Shown in pieces: positions 51,866 through 64,000 of a stretch of 64,000 nt of DNA. The stretch's first letter is position 1, and every line of letters begins with the position of its first letter. This stretch comes from Mesodorylaimus sp. YZB2_4 (lineage: Eukaryota > Nematoda > Enoplea > Dorylaimida > Dorylaimidae). The stretch lies in assembly GCA_030248295.1 (NCBI GenBank), contig JASANH010000965.1:476715-540714 (forward strand). The letters are read 5' to 3'. The notes under the pieces are model-generated. The model was given only the letters and a program-made list of their open reading frames with translations, searched no databases and was not told the DNA's origin. The position numbers were made by a program, and so were the translations under genes.

Positions 51866-54450
51866 TGGCAATTCCTGCTGTGGGTGCAACCAGCGCTTTC
51901 ATGTGAATGGCTATTTAATGTGTGGCGCGTGAGAACAGGCTGATGACTGATTAGTCTCAGACTGAGGCCTAGTGCCAAGATTGCCGACCTTATTGTACAT
52001 TATAGTCCCCAAAGACATGTCATAACCTTTCCTGCATTATCTGTCACTTGTGCTCTGGCATTTGTGTTTGCTATGCATTAATAGAGTCTAGAAAAATCGT
52101 CATATCTACGTTACAGCTCCCGCGCGGTACAATTGGTATCTCGGGTCACAAGCTGAATCCGTTTGGCGATACACCCCTCCTAAGTGCAGGCTAGTTGACC
52201 CCTCTTTAGTGGAACGCCCAATTGCCGCCTTTGATCAACCAAAGTCCTGTGTGTGGTCAAGGTGCCAATAGCGTATTAAGAGTGGCATGTCGACCTGCTC
52301 TAGGTAATGTCTGTCCTCACTCATCCCCGTGTCGGCCCCTTTGTCGGTTCTTGTAATTGTATTTCGCATATCGTTTTTAGCGAGTGACGTTCATGGACCC
52401 TTGCTGCTTTGTAAAGTACATGTACATGAATAGATGTATTACAGTAGGTATCCGTTTAGTGCTAGGTTTGGCAATTCATACTGATGCCCTCTTTTCAAAG
52501 CTCCTTCCTTCCGTGTAGTCGCAGATCACAAACACATTCATACATTAGAGGTATCTGAATCGTCCTTGACCTTTATGTCATCGAAAGTATCGAGGTTGAT
52601 GTCAGAGGCTTTTCCTATTCAATAAGCATTTCCTTCGAAAAATGCCACGCTTGAAAGCATCTTTGCAAGGCGAGTAGAGGTCGCAACAGAATTGCATCTG
52701 TTCGAAGAGTGCCAGTCAGATTTAGTACGCTGACGTGCACTCCATGTATAGCTCTATTCAAGTGCAGATACTCTGCCAATGTTGACACTGCACCACTTAG
52801 GTACCGAGCTCTCACTAATCCCTGGGGTAAGACTGTTTTAGCACTAGGGCTAAACATGCAGACCTATGGGAACCATGCGTTGCCCTGGCCCGCTAATTTA
52901 AATAACGCATCTAGAGTTGTAATAACAGCTAGACCTAAGGATCCGTTAGTGATATCGATAATATCAGATGCTAACAAAATCAATACTTTCTTGGTGGACT
53001 GCCTAATACTGTAGGTACATTTCCAAGTCGATGCTCCATGCTGTTGACTTCCCAAGATGGGCCCACGCTCTTCATTTGCATATTCAAAAGACTGCACTGC
53101 GCAATTCGTGCACTAACATCCCACATTGCTCGAAAGTAGTACACCCCAGTAAATGGGAGATTTCTTCTAACTCGTTAGGGTTGAAAATTATAACTGTGTA
53201 ATAATGGCGTGATAAAAACCTGTCCTTAAGAAAGGGAACCTAATCAAGTCAAGGTTTCTAGCTGTTACTCGTCTTTCACCTTGATGGCATAAAACCCGAC
53301 AAAGGACTCTGGCGTCGGCTAACGATAAGTGCATGATATTCGTCATTACCAGCATGCTCTGTCTAATGAGCATCAGACGGATAATCATAAAATGACACCT
53401 GCCGACTATTTCTACATTTCTGGCCATAGCCCAACAGGAGCTCGCTAATGGGGAGCATGATTCTGCGCCTATATGCCGCTTCAACGTTATTGTTTATCAT
53501 TTCGCACTCATGATGACTTTTAAAGTGATTTATAATGATTTGAGGATGTAGACCCCAAATCGTAAGTGGGGGGGGGGGTGTCTCCCCCTGGGTTCCATGG
53601 GAGGGTTAGAGTAGAGTTCATCTGAGGGCGCTGTACGCGTGCCGTTCAGTCACTCTTACTATTAGCAGCACTTTGTGGGGCTCAGAAGTTTTAGGGGCTT
53701 CAGGTACTGATGACGGGCTAAAGATTATCATTTTCCAGATAAGCTTTTTTGCAAGAGATTTTTCGACGCTTTTAGCAAAACTATAGAGGGCCGGACGCAG
53801 ATGAAATACATTTTAATAATGCTCTCTTGCAAAATAATAGCTGTCGCGAAGCCTTTCTAGAACTTGAAGACTACTTTCTCGAAAGTTGAGTTGAGTGCTC
53901 TTTCGGACAATTTCGATCGTTTATGTTTGTCACATCCGCACTCCTATAGCTTTCCTGACATGGTTATTCACCCACTCTTTTTAGGCTTGCTCTCGCTCAG
54001 ATAACATAGCTAGTCATGAGCAGCACTTGTCGTTAGAAGCGCCTGAGGCTTCAGCGCCTCGATAAGTAAGGGTCTTTGATATTTTCTGCCCCAGGCAGTT
54101 GAAACAGCGATCGTGAGACTGTCCCAGACGCGAGAAAGCAATAAAGCCCGCTTAAACGTGTTTGTCAAGAAACCGCACGGCGTACTGTTCATGATCGCAA
54201 CATCGCTCCAAATCACGTTTTAACAAAGGCGATTAGGCGAGGTGTCAGTTTGAACACCTGCTCAGAGATCGTTTCTCATCCATTTACGCCTAGGCGGGGC
54301 AATCCAGGCCGAGGACCGTGCCGCACGACATTAGAGGGCGGAAGGAAGTTACTTCCGTCAAAGCTGCTTTTGTTCTTTTTAGCTACATAAGACTTCGTCT
54401 CAGTCCGAGACAGTCAGTCAGTTCGAAGTGAACGAGCGAGGTAAGCAGTC
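51866..54450. other. Intergenic, nothing recognised
   Basis: About 2.6 kb with a poly-G run at about 53567 and no supported gene. The last 150 bases before 54451 include CTACATAAG and a Pyr/Pur mix that may be promoter and leader. Confidence 0.4.
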
Positions 54451-55642
54451 ATGGCGAACCATAGCGAAAGTGTCAACGGTACCGCCGAGATCGGTGAAGC
54501 TGAGTATGTGATCACGGCTGTGGGCCTGGGCTACACGTTGACGGCCATCACCGTCATTCCCTTGCATATCATATGCTCGTGGCTGATGTGGAAAGACAAG
54601 GACATGCGTAACTCGACGTACCAGTTCATCATCAACCTGAGTGTGGCCGATGTGCTAGAACTAATCCCACTCGGCCTGTACGCCGGTATAGTCATCTTGC
54701 TTCGAGTGAAGTTGGAGGACCAGAACTACTATTTGCATCGGTTCATGTAAGTACACGGTGCATGCAAGTGACTTCACCGGGTTCACAAAGTGCCTTTTTA
54801 CAGGGGTTTCTGGTGCTTGAGCGCGTGGTATGCCAATTGCGTTCTCTTCGCTTTCATTGCATTCAGCCGTTGGATCGCCATGACCAAGACCCACCTCGTG
54901 CAGCGTATCTTCACGTAAGTACATACTGGCTGTCTTGGGGTCTTTATTCGAAGCTACAACCATCGCTGTGCATTGCAGGAAAAGAAATTTGCTGTTGATG
55001 CATACGGTTCCATGGGCCATAATTTGCGGATTTTATTTTTACAGTCTTTTCTTACACCCAGTTCAAAACTTCTTTTTCTATCCGAAGTTTTTTACTTGGG
55101 GGTTTGACTTGAAACTGCCGTTTGGCGAGTATTTGCATTGGCACAATTTCGTTTTCAATACGACCTGCGCCGCTGTCGAAATGTACTTTAACATCATGTC
55201 GTTGCAGTGGGTGCACAGTACCCGCAAGACCATACAAAACTTGGCCACGGCCGAGAATCAACGTCGTGAAGTCAAGCTGTTGATTCAATGTTTCATCATA
55301 GGATGCGTGTTTACCTTAGCCAGTGTTATGTTCACTATCGTTTTCGCAGCTGGCTTAGATTCACCCATGGCATTCTTAGGCATGCAGATAGTATGGACTT
55401 TCAATCACTGCATCAATCCTATAGTCTACTTGAGTGTGAACACTAAGCTGAGGCGAGCGCTGATTAGATTGTGCACCTGCGGTAAGTTCGGACATGCTAA
55501 ACTCAAGTCAAAGACCCACATAAACCTGCCCACAGCCAGTGTGTATCCTTCGGGAGCTGCCAGCGCATCAAAGGGGCCGGGAGGAGGGGCGTTATCTACT
55601 GGGCTTGCTACAGGTGCTGGGACCAAACCGGCTTGGGAGTAG
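54451..55642 (+). CDS. Serpentine seven-transmembrane receptor, nematode type, three exons
   Basis: Exons 54451-54746, 54804-54914 and 54979-55642 join in phase to about 356 residues. The extracellular N-terminus carries NHS and NGT glycosylation sites. Helix 1 contains LTAITVIPLHIICSWLMW; helix 2 IINLSVADVLELIPLGLYAG; helix 3 ANCVLFAFIAFSRWIAMTK, with SRW at the DRY position. Helix 7 is NHCINPIVYLSVNTKLRRAL, an NPxxY-type end. The FFYPKFFTWGFDLKLPFGEY loop lies between helices 4 and 5. The C-terminal tail is Gly/Ser-rich. The pattern is that of nematode serpentine chemoreceptors (Srx/Srt/Srsx-like); which subfamily is uncertain. A likely role is chemosensation at the plasma membrane, with unknown ligand. 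The pseudogene at 50.8 kb is its tandem paralogue. Confidence 0.88.
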
Positions 55643-56602: not shown

Positions 56603-56755
56603 TGAAATCCTTGGCTCGCCCTAGGGCACACTAGGGCTGACCAGAGGATGGCCCAAGTCAGGAACAGTACCACGCAGTCCACGGACACCTTGTACTATAG
56701 TTTATTGCCACCACACCACAAGGGCCGTGTAGACTCACAATTCGGGGAGCAGCCG
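56603..56755 (-). repeat. LTR-like end of the gypsy element
   Basis: Matches 14827-14990 (TGAAATCCTTGGCTCGCCCTA, CACCACACCACAAGGGCC, TAGACTCACAATTCGGGGAGC). The extra ORF's last 30 codons run into it, as in elements whose last gene overlaps the 3' LTR, or as after a deletion joining ORF and LTR. Confidence 0.55.
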
Positions 56756-58189
56756 ATGGGGCAGGAACCCCACCTGGAACAGGGGGAACGCCGGCGACCA
56801 ACGCAGCAGGGCACGACTGCAATAATAAGAGACGCGCCTCCTCGTAGCCGGCCAATTCTCGTTTCGCCGTGATAAATTCACGCATCAAGTCCGCTTGCTC
56901 ATTCGACACTTTCCGAGGGTCATACGGATCGAATGATGACCTAACCATGTCGAATGCGCACCCCAAGTTACCACAGCACGAACAAGAGGGCAGAGCCATA
57001 TCGGATCTACCCCGTTCCACCAATGAAGGCGGCATATCCACCGTCGCCACGCCCATACGAACCATCGAAGTGAACCAAAGGGGCGGGGCGTCGCGCTGCA
57101 AGTACCACAAATCGTGTAGTGCACTCGTGGCGATCGCCAAATTCATGACCGCCAAACCACCCGTCGCCAATACACCAACTCGCACCGTTGGATCCAGCGG
57201 AAGCACTTGTCCGTCGCTGGGGATAACCAAGTGCGCCAGACTGGAGACGTGGAATGGAAATGGGAACACGCATGCCGTAGCCCCAGCCAGAGTCGAAGAG
57301 TCTATGCCGGTCGTAGGCAACTGAAATAAATCTGCCAATTGACGCGCGAATGTGTACTGGAACGCAGTGTCGACTGAACCACCGGCGAAATCCAAACCAC
57401 GTGTCCAGACATTGTCGAGACACGAGGTGTTCTGAATCATTCCCGGCCGGAGACACAACGTGTAGTCCAGCCGACGAATGCAAGAATTAGACCAAAAAAT
57501 CTTACCGACCAAGGGATTACACAACAATCCCATCAACGGAAGCTGGTACGCTGATTTCGTTGGGCCTGCATGGCGCGTATCGATGATAATCGTATGGCCC
57601 ATCGAATTGACCAATACGATATACCGAGCCAATGGGATCGGGCCATTCGGATACAATGTCAGAAATGTCGCCAGCGGAACGTGAGCATTGATCACCCGAT
57701 TAGGTGCGCAGGCCTCCACAAACGGCGCATCCATCGAGGTCGCTTCCATAGCAGTCGTAGTCTCTGGAGCGAACAGACCGGTCAGCTGATCGGCTAACCG
57801 GTCGACTCCCGCCGAAGCACCATCCGTTGGTTCCAACAGCACGGCCAACGGCTCGTCCGGAAAAATGGCGCTGAACTCGCCCAGGCGACTTTTTGTGAAC
57901 CATCTCGGATTTTAGCATCCAAGTCACGCAAGCCGTTCGCAGTGTCGACGGGCAGACCCAAATATGGATCGAGAACTGCCGTATCCGAGGCACTGGCCAC
58001 CGAAGCCATGACAGGTTCAGTGCCAGGAGCCAAGACTGATGCCGAAAAAATGGGAGCACTGGCGACCGAAGCCATTGCGGGTTCAGCGCCAGGTCCCGTC
58101 GTGTCCATAACGAATGAAGATGCGTCGGCCACCGCAGCCTGTGCTGAATCGGTGCCGGACGCCGCTGACGAGATCGAAGAATGGTCCAT
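56658..58189 (-). CDS. Unknown downstream ORF, two frames (-1 shift)
   Basis: Starts MDHSSISSAASGTDSAQ at 58189; about 100 low-complexity Ala/Ser/Pro/Val-rich residues contain two copies of a PG-EP-MASVASA unit. A second open frame, -1 to the first, runs from 57915 to 56658 and continues the protein as LGEFSAIFPDEPLAVLLEP. The overlap contains CACAAAAAGT at about 57890-57900, a possible slip site. The second part has alternating hydrophobic strands and helices (IVLVNSMGHTIIIDTRH, LPLMGLLCNPLVGKIFW). That pattern is loosely like a DEDD 3'-5' exonuclease fold, but catalytic acids are not clear. It is not a convincing envelope protein: no signal peptide, few Cys pairs. It could instead be gag of a second, truncated element. 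Function unknown. Confidence 0.55.
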
Positions 58190-58667: not shown

Positions 58668-60065
58668 TCACATATCGCAGTCCAGATGCACACAGGGCGC
58701 AAAGGGGCAGCGATACACTGAAGTGAATCGGACTGGAGCTGTACCTTCGTCAAGATTGGCATCTGGCAAGGTGCCAGCCAATCGCATATCTTCGATTGCA
58801 CAAATCGCTTCCTTCAAACGACCCACCTTACCCTTGTGCTTCTGTGGAATGAAATTCTTTAATTTCAGCTTGGCCTGAAAGAACTGCTGATGCGTGGCAA
58901 AATCGCGTATCGCTGTTTCCCGCAGAACCGCATACTTCCCGTCATCGTTCAGGAACTGCACCCGATATACCTGTTCCAGGTTGACCTTGGACACGGAAGA
59001 CGCATGTGCCTTCTTGATCGGTGCATCGTCGAGGTCACCAGGGCACGAATCCAGGCCCAGGCCTGTAATACGACCTGGCCACCACGGAAAACCCATGACC
59101 TTTGCCCAAACGTACTGACCAACATGGAAAGATTGCGTAGCAGGCGGGACATTCGTCGTCGAACTCGTATTCGAGGTAGGCTTGTCCTGTAATGGAATAG
59201 GCTGATCAGCATTATCAGCACTACCCTCCACCTGCTCTGAAAGACCCCTGTCCTTCGTCGGTATGCGCTCTGCGTCAGCGGACACATCGTCCACTGCTGC
59301 AGCTCGTTCCAGGCGTTCCGTCGTCTTGACCAGATGCTGTGGGTGCCATCGTTCAATCGGCTTCGATGGATCCTGCAAATTGCGGATCAACACACCCGAC
59401 TCACCCATCAGCTTCACCACTTCGTATGGACCTAACCAGTGAAAACTCAATTTCCTAGAAAGGCCAGGTTTGAAGTGATAGTTCGGCTTACGAACCCAAT
59501 CTCCAACTTTCAACGACAGAGGACGTGCCATTTTATCATACTGCAATTTCTGACGAAACTGATTGAGTTCGATGTTCTGACGTACCTTCGCATCGATACT
59601 TGCCATGCGGATCCGCAAGTGATCCACATACTCAGTGCCTTGTACCGATTCAGTACGAGGTTGAGCGAGCAAAGTATCCAATGCCGTGGGCGGGTCCCTT
59701 CCATGCGACATGAGATACGGGGAAACACCCGTCGTCGTGTGCGGTGTATGCCGATAATGCATCATTATCAGCTGCAGTCGGTTATCCCAATCATTTTGAT
59801 TAGGATGCACGTAGCATGCCATGGAGAACCCGATTAACTTATTCAAATTTTCGACATTACCATTGCATTGCGGGTGATAGGGTGTTGTCGAAACTTTCTT
59901 CACTCCCAGTTCCTTGCAAAGTCGTAAAACGAGCTTTGACAAGAAATTAGAGCCCCGATCGCTAAGGAGCACCCGAGGACATCCGTGTCGAGTGATCCAC
60001 CCATCGACGAGCAGGCGAGCAATGCGTGCTGCCTTTTGATCGGGTACCGCATATGCCTCAGCTCA
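58668..60065 (-). CDS. Integrase C-terminal half fused to a PWWP domain
   Basis: Same frame as RT, separated from it only by the TGA at 60063-60065. After the stop, the open frame gives the second catalytic Asp (VLLSDRGSNFLS) and the catalytic Glu (GNVENLNKLI) of the DDE core. Next comes the GPY/F module (KVGDWVRKP, HWLGPYEVVKL, WHPQHLVK). About 60 polar residues further on is a PWWP domain (about 58788-59131): FHVGQYVWAKVMGFPWWPGR with the PWWP tetrad itself, YRVQFLNDDGKYAVL, and C-terminal helices FFQAKLKLKNFIP and GRLKEAICAIEDMRLA. In host proteins PWWP binds methylated H3K36 and DNA, so it would be a chromatin-targeting tail analogous to the chromodomain of chromoviruses. The frame ends about 40 residues later. 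Confidence 0.87.
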
Positions 60066-62759
60066 CTTGGTGAATATGCACATAATCACAACCACGAACC
60101 TGTTACCATGATCCGAGGTTGGAAATGGACCTTGTACGTCGATGGCAATCGTGTCGAAGGGCGCTGTGCGTTTAATGATCTCCAAAGGCGGTCGCTCGTA
60201 TCGATGAGGTGCCTTGAAACGCGCACACGTGTTGCACTCAGCACACCAGGCCCTGAGATCGCGTCGCATCGTGGACCAGAAATACTTGATCCTCAGCGCA
60301 GAGAACAGTCGATCGAAACCAGGGTGGTTCGCATCCTTATGGGCAGCATCGAAAATGAATCGACGCAGCTCTGACGGGACCACCACTCTGTCGTGAAGAT
60401 ACGTTCCTTCGACCAACCTGCTCTCGTGATGCCATCTGTGCATAAGAATGCCCTTGTCGTCCAGCAGATAGCTCTTCGCCAAATTCGCGATTCTGGGAGG
60501 TTGATTGTAATCACCCTGCAAAAATGCAATGATACGTCCCATTTCATCATCATCCCGTTGCATCTTCTTCAGAAGGTCCCGGGATGGTGCATCAGGAAAT
60601 GCATCGGCTGCTATTTTAGCCATGTCGATCCCCAACTCGTCCGATTCCAATTGCGTTGCTGGATCCAATTCGTCCCGCAACTCCAAATCGCATTCAGAGT
60701 TGGAGTCGTCTGAGAGATTGACATCTGGTTGCACTTCCAATTCCAAGGCGGCATCTGTATCCGGAGACCCTACCGTAGTCCAGACAGATGCTCCAACCAC
60801 ATGCTTCGCTTCTGCAATCGCGACGGCACATTCATTGAACATGCCCTCGTATCCATCTTCGTTACATTCCTCAGAGATTGAGTCTAAGGGACCAGACGAT
60901 GCCAGAGCAACAAAGTGGTCTAGCCAATTGACTGGGAGAGGCACTGGTAGGACCTCACGCACTGGAGCCAACGGGATATCGTCGATAACTGCGCTTGGAG
61001 CCTCCACCACAGACTCGTCCTCGCTTCCCGTATCCGTTGCTGCCGTGATGCAGATCATGGGTACACCGGGTTCTGTGACAGGAGCTTGCTCACCATCACC
61101 CTCGGTCGCTTCGCCACCGTCGGAGATACCAGAATCCGACTCGATCGTGACTGCTTGCGGCAATAAGGCGATCAATGCGGAAGGGCCACACGTCGAACAC
61201 CGTTTGGTGGGTGACAATGCCGAAAACAGCATAGCATCGGCCGCTGGCATGCGCGATAGAAAATCGGCGGCGCCATTGTCACATCCTTTCGCGTGTGTAA
61301 TGCTGAAAGTATAATCTTGCAATTGCATAAGCCACTTACCGCGACGTCCTTCCAAGTCCTTCTCCTTGTACCAGTACAAGAGAGGCTTGTGATCCGTGTA
61401 CACTTCGAAGGACCGTCCGTATAAATAATGTCGATATTGTTTGATCGCCCAATGAATAGCAAGGCACTCCTGATCGATCGTCGGGTACCTCTGCTCGGCT
61501 GGTGACAGAGTTCGTGAGATGAACCCAATGGCCCATGCGTGTTTCGGCTTCTTCGGATCATACTGCTCCAGGACAGCACCTATAGCAAAACTACTTGCGT
61601 CAGTGCTGAGTCTGAAAGGCAGTGAGAAGTCAACATATCGCATGACTGGATACGTTACCAGTGCTTCTCGCAGATCTTCGAATTCTTTTTGATGTGTATC
61701 CGTCCATTCCCATCGCACGTTCTTCTTCAAGAGTTCTCGCAGAGCCTTGGTTCTACGAGCAAACCCCTCGACGAACGATCGATAGTAACTGGCCAACCCC
61801 ATAAATTTGTGGAGTTGGTCTGTGTTCGTCGGAATTGGGAAATTTCGGATTTTGTCCCGCTTATCATCTGTGATCGAAACACCCTCGGCACTAATGCAAT
61901 GGCCCAAGTACTCGACTCGGTCCATGCCAATAGCGCATTTGGATGGTTCAAGCATCAGATGTGCCTCTCGCAATCGTCCAAATACTGTGTTCAGGTGCTC
62001 GACATGTTCGTCCAGTGTCTTGCTGAACACGATGATATCGTCCAGATAGCATAGGGTGTAAATCCACAGCAATCCGGACAATGTCATCTCCATGCACCTT
62101 TGGAACTCCGCAGGTGCGTTGCAGAGTCCAAATGGCATGTTGACGTATTCCCAGAAGCCGAAGGGGCAAACGAATGCCGTTTTTTCAGCTGTCTCTGGGT
62201 CCAAGGGTATCTGACTATACCCCGACGTCATGTCGAACACTGAAAAATACTTCGACCCACGCAGTGCATCCAACATTTCATGAATGTTGGGCAGTGTGTG
62301 GGCGTCCTTCTTCGTTACCTTATTGATGGCACGGAAGTCGACGCACATCCTCCAATCGCCCGTTTTCTTGCGCACCAATACGATCGGCGATGCCCATGGA
62401 GAACGTGAGGGTCGAATCCACCCCAGGCGCAATAACTTCGCGACTTCCTCCTGGATGATTGGCTTCTGACTTTCGGCTAGTCGTCGAGGACGGGCCATGA
62501 TTGGTTTTGCGTCCCCGGTATCGATATGATGTTGAGCCAGATGTGTGCCACCAATTTCTTCCTTTTTCAGGGCGAAGACGTCCGAATTACATGCGACCAC
62601 CGCACGGACTAGCTGTTCGTCTCGCTCTGAAAGATTGCCATTTCCGAATTTGAGCTTACCCAGTAGTTCTTTCTGACGTTTCGGATCATGCCGCTCGATC
62701 GGAACTCGGTGTAGGCGATTAGGCTTCGGCCGCCCATCTTTCTTCCACTCATCAGCCAC
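60063..62759 (-). CDS. Gypsy pol: reverse transcriptase, RNase H, integrase N-terminal half
   Basis: RT reads ARPRRLAESQKPIIQEEVAK, DWRMCVDFRAINKVTKK, FSVFDMTSGYSQIPL, FGFWEYVNMPFGLCNAPAEF and YLDDIIVFSKTLDEH, with the YLDD active site intact. RNase H reads LSTDASSFAIGAVLEQ, DQECLAIHWAIKQYRHYLYG and YTDHKPLLYW. Then about 225 residues (about 60570-61245) rich in Asp/Glu/Ser with no recognised fold. Integrase starts near DDDEMGRIIAFLQG, with the zinc module HKDANHPG...CAECNTC and the first catalytic Asp (IAIDVQGPF). The frame closes with TGA right after FTK, where gypsy integrases have Trp. The RT frame is -1 relative to the protease frame and overlaps it by about 150 bases. Confidence 0.93.
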   Translation of the reverse strand: MADEWKKDGRPKPNRLHRVPIERHDPKRQKELLGKLKFGNGNLSERDEQLVRAVVACNSDVFALKKEEIGGTHLAQHHIDTGDAKPIMARPRRLAESQKPIIQEEVAKLLRLGWIRPSRSPWASPIVLVRKKTGDWRMCVDFRAINKVTKKDAHTLPNIHEMLDALRGSKYFSVFDMTSGYSQIPLDPETAEKTAFVCPFGFWEYVNMPFGLCNAPAEFQRCMEMTLSGLLWIYTLCYLDDIIVFSKTLDEHVEHLNTVFGRLREAHLMLEPSKCAIGMDRVEYLGHCISAEGVSITDDKRDKIRNFPIPTNTDQLHKFMGLASYYRSFVEGFARRTKALRELLKKNVRWEWTDTHQKEFEDLREALVTYPVMRYVDFSLPFRLSTDASSFAIGAVLEQYDPKKPKHAWAIGFISRTLSPAEQRYPTIDQECLAIHWAIKQYRHYLYGRSFEVYTDHKPLLYWYKEKDLEGRRGKWLMQLQDYTFSITHAKGCDNGAADFLSRMPAADAMLFSALSPTKRCSTCGPSALIALLPQAVTIESDSGISDGGEATEGDGEQAPVTEPGVPMICITAATDTGSEDESVVEAPSAVIDDIPLAPVREVLPVPLPVNWLDHFVALASSGPLDSISEECNEDGYEGMFNECAVAIAEAKHVVGASVWTTVGSPDTDAALELEVQPDVNLSDDSNSECDLELRDELDPATQLESDELGIDMAKIAADAFPDAPSRDLLKKMQRDDDEMGRIIAFLQGDYNQPPRIANLAKSYLLDDKGILMHRWHHESRLVEGTYLHDRVVVPSELRRFIFDAAHKDANHPGFDRLFSALRIKYFWSTMRRDLRAWCAECNTCARFKAPHRYERPPLEIIKRTAPFDTIAIDVQGPFPTSDHGNRFVVVIMCIFTK

Positions 62760-63871
62760 AGTTCTTCGTGCCTCACGAATTCGACCTCAGGCCTGATTGG
62801 CGTGTATGAACCAGGCGCCAACTCCGCGGGTTGATCCGAAATAACCGCCTCAATCCTCCAAAACGGAGGCGCTTTCTTGTCAAATGGAAATGGAGTTGGT
62901 ACTTCCCATTGTAGACCGGATTTCCCTGGATCCGTCCTCCGATTGTAACGGAATGTTACTCGGAACGGTTCCAACTCAGAGAGAAATCCCACATTCATAT
63001 TTCTCGGTAGAATCTGAGCCACTTCTGCCAGATTCACTAAAGGGACCAGAAATTGTCCGGTCCTTTTATCAGGTCGTATCACAGTCCTGGGCATCATGAC
63101 TGGTAGTTCCATAGGCATCGGGTCGAAGAGCACATCGCGTCCCCGAAATCGACGAGGTGCGACGGCTGTGGTGATCACATGCCGACGAGCTCCAACCTGA
63201 GTGGCGTTAGCCATTCGAGCGGATGCTTGGAATAAATCTTGAGGCGTACGATGCACTGGTACGTCGACACCGGCCAACGCACCAGCCGTGTACCAAACTC
63301 GTTCTTTGTCGGTATCGTATTGCCATCGATGCAGACCCGTGTTGAAATCTTCTCCCAGTAGCACAGAATATTTTCCATACTCTGAAACGTAGAATGGAAC
63401 ATTAGGTGCAACTTTACCACCGATTTTGATATCCAAACGAGCAATGCCAATAATTGGCATCGGTTTACCATCCCCATCAACGCAATGATCGATGTCTGGG
63501 GGCTCCAGTTTGGACCGATCGTATCGTTTTCGTTCTATCGCTTTCATTGTTTCCTCTGAAATCAGGGTAATACTTGCACAACTGTCCACATACGCACGAG
63601 TCTTATGACGACTAATCGAGACGTCAATCTGCGGAAGAGACAGACGCCTCGTTACCATCGTTCGCCCATCGCTCGCCATGCATACACCATACGGCCCGTA
63701 GCCTGCCTCTGCAAAAGATAGTTTTACAGTGGGTACGTTCTGGGGGGAAGGGAATAAATAGTGGATAGGCGGCACACTCAGTGGTGTACCGCCTTCCTCA
63801 CGTTTTTTGAATCGGTTGTTCGTTCGATTGGTTCTTCCTCCTTCACCTCCACTGGCTGTGTCTTCTTCCAA
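62609..63871 (-). CDS. Gypsy aspartic protease region (and linker to RT)
   Basis: Contains a retropepsin-like core: ISRHKTRAYVDSCASITLIS, with the catalytic Asp-Ser but Cys in place of the usual Gly, then KIGGKVAPNVPFYV and KYSVLLGEDF (flap and ILG-x-D-like end). About 200 residues follow with PMELPVMMPRTVIRP and PAELAPGSYTPIRPEVEFV, typical of the protease-RT connector. The frame is -1 relative to gag, and its 5' end overlaps gag for about 90 bases, so it is probably made by ribosomal frameshifting. The start shown is only the open part; translation most likely enters from gag. Confidence 0.8.
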   Translation of the reverse strand: MEEDTASGGEGGRTNRTNNRFKKREEGGTPLSVPPIHYLFPSPQNVPTVKLSFAEAGYGPYGVCMASDGRTMVTRRLSLPQIDVSISRHKTRAYVDSCASITLISEETMKAIERKRYDRSKLEPPDIDHCVDGDGKPMPIIGIARLDIKIGGKVAPNVPFYVSEYGKYSVLLGEDFNTGLHRWQYDTDKERVWYTAGALAGVDVPVHRTPQDLFQASARMANATQVGARRHVITTAVAPRRFRGRDVLFDPMPMELPVMMPRTVIRPDKRTGQFLVPLVNLAEVAQILPRNMNVGFLSELEPFRVTFRYNRRTDPGKSGLQWEVPTPFPFDKKAPPFWRIEAVISDQPAELAPGSYTPIRPEVEFVRHEELWLMSGRKMGGRSLIAYTEFRSSGMIRNVRKNYWVSSNSEMAIFQSETNS

Positions 63872-64000
63872 TGGTACGGACTTTCATCTCGAATTCTGGC
63901 GCTACACTGCATCAGGGAGTGTGACCTATCCCCACACTGACCACACGGAGAGGAGCAGTCCCGGGCATAGTGACCACTGCCCTTGCAGTTAAAACAAACT
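63778..64000 (-). CDS. Gag C-terminus with zinc knuckle, partial
   Basis: The right-edge frame reads VCFNCKGSGHYARDC, a canonical CX2CX4HX4C nucleocapsid knuckle that binds RNA, followed by a second Cys/His cluster SPCGQCGDRSHSLMQC. A charged tail ends at TGA 63778-63780. The rest of gag lies beyond the window. Confidence 0.85.
   Translation of the reverse strand, partial: VCFNCKGSGHYARDCSSPCGQCGDRSHSLMQCSARIRDESPYHWKKTQPVEVKEEEPIERTTDSKNVRKAVHH

Follow-up and report, generated by a model that had tools for sequence, protein, structure and literature searches.

Does the Ty3/gypsy integrase at this locus carry a chromatin reader of its own? The window, which is the whole 64,000-nucleotide stretch analyzed here, comes from the nematode Mesodorylaimus sp. 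YZB2_4 (GCA_030248295.1, contig JASANH010000965.1, positions 476,715 to 540,714), and a sequence-only reading of it had proposed that a gypsy integrase continues without a stop into a C-terminal PWWP domain. A six-frame reading of the window showed an open frame at 58668-60062(-), stop included, with a length of 464 codons rather than the 434 given in that reading. When this frame was searched with Pfam profiles, PWWP (PF00855) scored at residues 315-403, in frame after a stretch that we take to be the GPY/F motif, with an E value of 3.7e-10 and 40.6 bits against a cut-off of 25.6, which confirms the proposed domain. Since the integrase core (rve) is split, the part in this frame scored 28.4 bits, short of the Pfam cut-off of 32.6. 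A TGA codon at 60063-60065, which the sequence-only reading had overlooked, shares the reading frame of the PWWP piece, and the frame at 60066-62786 terminates there. Thus, the integrase frame is open from the second half of the core into the PWWP domain, as had been proposed, but not across the core as a whole. The frames and Pfam matches in the window follow the Ty3/gypsy order of protease, reverse transcriptase, RNase H and integrase. The window element is a Ty3/gypsy long terminal repeat (LTR) retrotransposon whose integrase runs in frame into a PWWP domain.

The window copy itself is dead, with its integrase core split by the TGA and its 3' part rearranged. In the alignment of 13 related pieces given below, the TGA falls between the first and second catalytic aspartates, and the rearrangement on the 3' side was observed relative to the copy at contig C514. 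In addition, four codons that two other loci (L003 and L014) have in the C-terminal helix region, past the PWWP core, are missing from the window copy. The window ends where contig C60 (540,714 bases) ends, which puts the 5' part of the element out of view.

The fusion was found to recur throughout the host genome, which was searched as a 145 Mb assembly. The 464-residue piece gave 95 matches, and residues 1-464 were covered at 94% identity or more in 15 loci, the window included. Eleven of these 15 full-length loci are free of stops inside the piece, and the corresponding stretch sits within a single open frame of 1743 codons at C514 and C42. More distant groups showed 67-71% (family B), 58-59% (family C) and 30-38% (others) identity to the window piece. 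When the genome was searched with a PWWP profile, at least 146 matches were obtained, every one over the cut-off, as a lower bound from scoring the best 150 of 173 candidates. At least 104 of the 146 follow a same-strand integrase match by no more than 1.5 kb; this count was built from 69 of the 95 window-piece matches, 43 of the 93 rows of a second list (family-E matches included) and all 150 rve rows, and rows judged irrelevant to any PWWP match were omitted, so it is also a lower bound. Viewed from the integrase side, a PWWP match at most 2.5 kb downstream on the same strand accompanies 41 of the 150 scored rve matches, compared with 2 cases in the control orientations (wrong strand or upstream), and the distance from rve to PWWP was 599-751 bp in 40 of the 41 linked cases. 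No PWWP was present among the matches listed for the 109 other rve matches. Among the 42 unlinked PWWP matches, L040, L059, L061 and L062 showed element sequence ahead of the PWWP domain when their frames were read.

In the frames read, the PWWP domain stands after GPY/F and a linker, at or near the frame end, in families labelled A to I. Thirteen representative pieces were aligned over 772 columns, with identities to the first piece from 70% down to 30%. The H2C2, rve and PWWP profiles of Pfam scored in all 13 pieces, and D147, D207, E243 and the GPY at 383-385, by our own assignment of the motifs, were invariant, giving an integrase with H2C2, D-D-35-E and GPY/F in every piece. No Chromo match at an E value of 0.001 or lower was obtained in the aligned pieces, which have a PWWP domain in place of the chromodomain of chromoviruses. 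The family-D copies L070 and L071 are incomplete, owing to a contig end and a rearrangement. Altogether, the PWWP-ended integrases are a large and diverse group of deeply diverged families in the host genome.

In addition to recurrence, we examined selection on the domain through the ratio of nonsynonymous (dN) to synonymous (dS) substitution rates. In 7 of the 17 pairs, those in which dS stayed below 1 for the integrase and PWWP regions alike, dN/dS was 0.06-0.11 for PWWP, 0.04-0.19 for the integrase (H2C2 to GPY/F) and 0.10-0.67 for the linker. In saturated pairs (dS >1.7), the PWWP ratio was 0.10 for the H pair, 0.10 for the D pair and 0.20 for A-B. Stops in L024 were skipped codon by codon, and L052 was in none of the 17 pairs. 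Judged by these substitution ratios, the PWWP domain is under purifying selection about as strict as that on the catalytic part. Some copies also look young by their near-identical terminal repeats. The family-A element at C514 has two terminal repeats that are 99.4% identical over 336 bp, and a family-D copy at C48 has terminal repeats of the form TG...CA that are 96.9% identical, a 4-bp duplication (AGTG), a primer-site-like TGG adjoining the 5' repeat and a single 2153-codon frame ending in PWWP. LTRs are present at C514 and C48, with target site duplication at C48, and the window keeps a 3' remnant only.

The 3' end of the frame showed a further pattern in some pairs. Between L048 and L067, the synonymous difference was 0.07-0.17 in eight of the first nine 50-codon segments and 0.38 in the remaining one, and it was 0.47-0.77 from codon 451 on, which corresponds to the linker and PWWP. 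In the B pair L018/L020, it climbed to 0.60 in the segment from codon 551. A rise at the PWWP end was seen in 2 of the 5 pairs examined, the other 3 having no clean step. The integrase core of these pairs is young by comparison, and the rise suggests that recombination swaps 3' segments with the PWWP domain between related lineages.

Next, we examined the identity of the domain and its aromatic cage. A profile of 15 element PWWPs matched solved structures of MSH6 (1.7e-16), NSD2 (1.7e-18 over two domains) and PSIP1/LEDGF (2.6e-12). The available portions of two papers give the cage residues as M15, Y18, W21 and F44 in PSIP1 (PMC3663649) and as Y18, W21 and F44 in HDGF2 (PMC3119473). In our alignment, the window residues at PSIP1 M15, Y18, W21 and F44 are V, F, W and F. 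The transfer of PSIP1 numbering to alignment columns is our own assumption; the MSH6 and NSD2 alignments put the cage at the same window residues, and the spacing fits. For the cage, 13 representatives were compared, with the window and L014 omitted as extra family-A copies and with D, E and H each represented more than once. An aromatic residue was found at the Y18 position in 4, at W21 in 10 and at F44 in 12 of the 13. According to the excerpted source, MBD5 and the N-terminal PWWP of NSD1 likewise keep a single aromatic at the cage positions (PMC3119473), and partial cage loss is therefore compatible with a real PWWP. A separate candidate for the PWWP tail, designed pentatricopeptide repeats, was rejected: each single repeat had an independent E value of at least 23, and the low whole-sequence E values were summed over repeats.

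The elements may steer their own insertion through the PWWP domain instead of borrowing a host guide protein. We consider it fairly probable that the dead copy in the window belongs to a PWWP-integrase group in which the domain tethers the integration complex to nucleosomes, with H3K36 contact where the cage is intact. The PWWP domain would stay on the mature integrase and would tether the complex through contacts with nucleosomal DNA. In the intact-cage families A (that of the window) and B (its sister), a methylated histone lysine, with H3K36 the likeliest, would be contacted as well, and reading of the mark would alter the choice of insertion sites. The domain would then be a built-in counterpart of LEDGF/p75 for lentiviruses and of the chromodomain for chromoviruses. 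The PWWP domain of PSIP1 binds nucleosomes trimethylated at H3K36 (H3K36me3), in the available text of PMC3663649, and a PHD finger or HP1 chromodomain fused to the integrase-binding part of LEDGF redirected HIV-1 integration, in that of PMC8149907. A reader on the integration complex can therefore suffice to change targeting, and the targeting idea is plausible for these elements.

Several results speak against this interpretation. By alignment, all three cage positions are aromatic in 2 of the 13 representatives only, L003 (family A) and L018 (family B), and H3K36me reading cannot be assumed for the whole group because in the other 11 one or more of these positions are non-aromatic. Over their first 75 residues, 15 PWWPs carry a net charge between -2 and +6 (0 in the window), and charge thus gives no clear sign of a basic DNA-binding face. 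In the distant saturated pair A-D, dN/dS for PWWP was 0.56, the highest of the saturated pairs. Single-sequence structure prediction of 58668-59318(-) gave a mean pLDDT (predicted local distance difference test) of 34.5, too low for a usable model. Finally, the gypsy families L072 and L073, whose frames were read by eye, run from GPY/F into tails without a visible PWWP. The partial loss of the cage argues against the usual reading of methyl-lysine, and nucleosome or DNA tethering appears to be the safer general reading, with H3K36 methylation as a proposal for single families.

A general nucleosome or DNA tether that reads no single methylation mark, the intact cage of families A and B not being decisive, is a real but less probable alternative. 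It is consistent with cage positions that vary across families while the whole domain is under selection, and with the available account of the PSIP1 PWWP, whose affinity for a methylated peptide alone is weak and whose binding is driven by nucleosomal DNA contacts (PMC3663649). Against this, F, W and F are retained in family A and its sister family B, and the F44 and W21 positions are mostly aromatic; the latter point is a weak one, since both residues also lie in the hydrophobic core (PMC3663649, in part). A bolder extension of the favored tethering reading is offered tentatively, as something we would not expect to hold in full: a nematode Ty3/gypsy branch with its own LEDGF-like PWWP might insert into H3K36-methylated gene bodies, perhaps germline-expressed ones, and exchange of the PWWP end by recombination might let families switch mark as the cage diverges. 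A role of the PWWP domain other than target choice, such as integrase multimerization, nuclear import or another contact with a host protein, is unlikely. Selection shows a need for the domain and not for targeting, but PWWP domains are known mainly as chromatin-binding modules in the accessible parts of PMC3119473 and PMC3663649, and the chromodomain of chromoviruses occupies the same place in that of PMC3605345. The window copy is broken and rearranged, as might follow from a single capture of host DNA by a decaying copy, but related elements do not all end before the PWWP domain, and such a capture is ruled out for practical purposes by the full piece shared among 15 loci and by the many diverged families in which the same arrangement recurs under purifying selection.

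The sequence-only reading had known of no described Ty3/gypsy lineage with this fusion, and our searches agree with it. We found no described integrase-PWWP element in the open-licence literature, which was covered partly through top-ranked results only. In protein searches outside the host genome, in which nematode coverage was poor, PF00855 was absent among the matches listed (6; 120 of 124; 9); in the 124-match search, scoring was confined to the 7996 candidates with the most words in common. Among the nearest integrases listed by that search, several have a chromodomain (PF00385). A scan of viral contigs gave no relative, and all of these searches bear little on other nematodes. On the question of a single origin of the fusion, an integrase tree was built from 89 of 135 fetched proteins covering at least 85% of the model, with 46 left out. 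Families A, B, C, F, G and H were placed together (support 93/83, and 100/96 without F), D and E stood apart, and the deep forks were unsettled; the PWWP label needed one change in 52% of the bootstrap trees. We rate the PWWP-integrase as a chromovirus-like arrangement with a different reader, apparently undescribed in the literature searched.

The features of the window are collected in the table.

Features of the window copy and its neighborhood (positions in the window)
Feature	Position	Strand	Remarks
Second half of integrase core, GPY/F, linker and PWWP, open frame	58671..60062	-	464 codons; stop at 58668-58670
PWWP domain PF00855 (residues 315-403 of the 464-residue piece)	58854..59120	-	Pfam; recovered by the genome profile search at G000:C60:535568-535834
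GPY of the GPY/F stretch	59436..59444	-	Coordinates counted along the frame; G, P and Y invariant in 13/13 aligned pieces
rve integrase core, second part (residues 2-64)	59871..60059	-	Pfam; profile positions 38-102 of 102
In-frame TGA within integrase core	60063..60065	-	Frame reading
pol frame: reverse transcriptase, RNase H, H2C2, first part of integrase core	60066..62786	-	Frame reading and Pfam
Integrase zinc-binding H2C2	about 60210-60380	-	Pfam
RNase H	about 61311-61631	-	Pfam
Reverse transcriptase	about 61899-62375	-	Pfam
Aspartyl protease domain, inside frame 62609-63883	63344..63628	-	PF13975, 31 bits against a cut-off of 28.2
Remnant of large third frame downstream of pol	56658..57911	-	417 codons; no Pfam match
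Terminal repeat remnant at the 3' end of the element	56661..56755	-	95 bases; 95.8% identity to one of the two C514 terminal repeat copies
Chemoreceptor-like gene	54445-55642	+	Srt/Srx serpentine chemoreceptor Pfam matches

The element's 3' end and the final exon-like frame of the chemoreceptor gene are about 1 kb apart, a position uninformative on targeting either way. The Srt/Srx domains of this gene indicate a nematode host. A very large third frame follows pol in families A and B, with 1503 codons at C622 and with 1363 codons at L069 462-4550(+), where it is still open at the L069 end; it gave no Pfam match at an E value of 1 or lower. At L065 (G000:C108:7100-9700), another of the 42 unlinked matches, a PWWP domain at C108:9157-9420(+) has an element-like C-terminal helix and no integrase ahead, and it may belong to a host gene or to a domesticated or other element. 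Of 70 chromodomain matches, four (at C268, C682, C851 and C1059) follow a listed same-strand rve match at a distance of 520-522 bp, with the chromodomain in a short separate frame; chromodomain-type integrases therefore seem to coexist in the host genome. Nine contigs (C372, C847, C76, C78, C128, C174, C192, C538 and C111) start 675-718 bp from an outward-facing rve match and five (C334, C779, C58, C396 and C962) start 350-360 bp from an outward-facing family-E match; these contig starts are probably assembly breaks in repeats.

To our knowledge, what is understood of how integrases select sites on chromatin comes mostly from readers borrowed from the host and from a single built-in reader, the chromodomain (see also PMC8149907). 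If the favored reading is true, the PWWP domain would be a second built-in reader, used by many families of one genome. With a naturally varying cage and PWWP-less gypsy elements for control, the relation of reader to insertion site could be tested directly, and naturally evolved PWWP-integrase fusions could be compared with engineered tethers that redirect retroviral integration.

Among known systems, Cer1 of Caenorhabditis elegans differs in that the available text on its integrase mentions neither a chromatin-reading domain nor the word chromodomain, and its CERV protein has 517 residues in the same source, compared with more than 1300 in the third frame here. Orchid Ty3/gypsy elements with an N6-methyladenosine (m6A) RNA demethylase domain provide a precedent for a fixed extra domain of host type, but that domain is a different one and acts on RNA rather than on chromatin (PMC9289625, in its accessible part). 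Lentiviral integrase with LEDGF/p75 is similar in that a PWWP domain is coupled to the integration complex, the LEDGF PWWP binding H3K36me3 (PMC8149907, as excerpted). In lentiviruses, however, the PWWP domain belongs to a host protein that attaches through a separate integrase-binding domain, whereas here a predicted reader is in the element's own frame. Chromoviruses share the Ty3/gypsy domain order and a chromatin-reading domain of the Royal family behind the integrase, in the available part of PMC3605345; their reader is a chromodomain, and the one found here is a PWWP domain.
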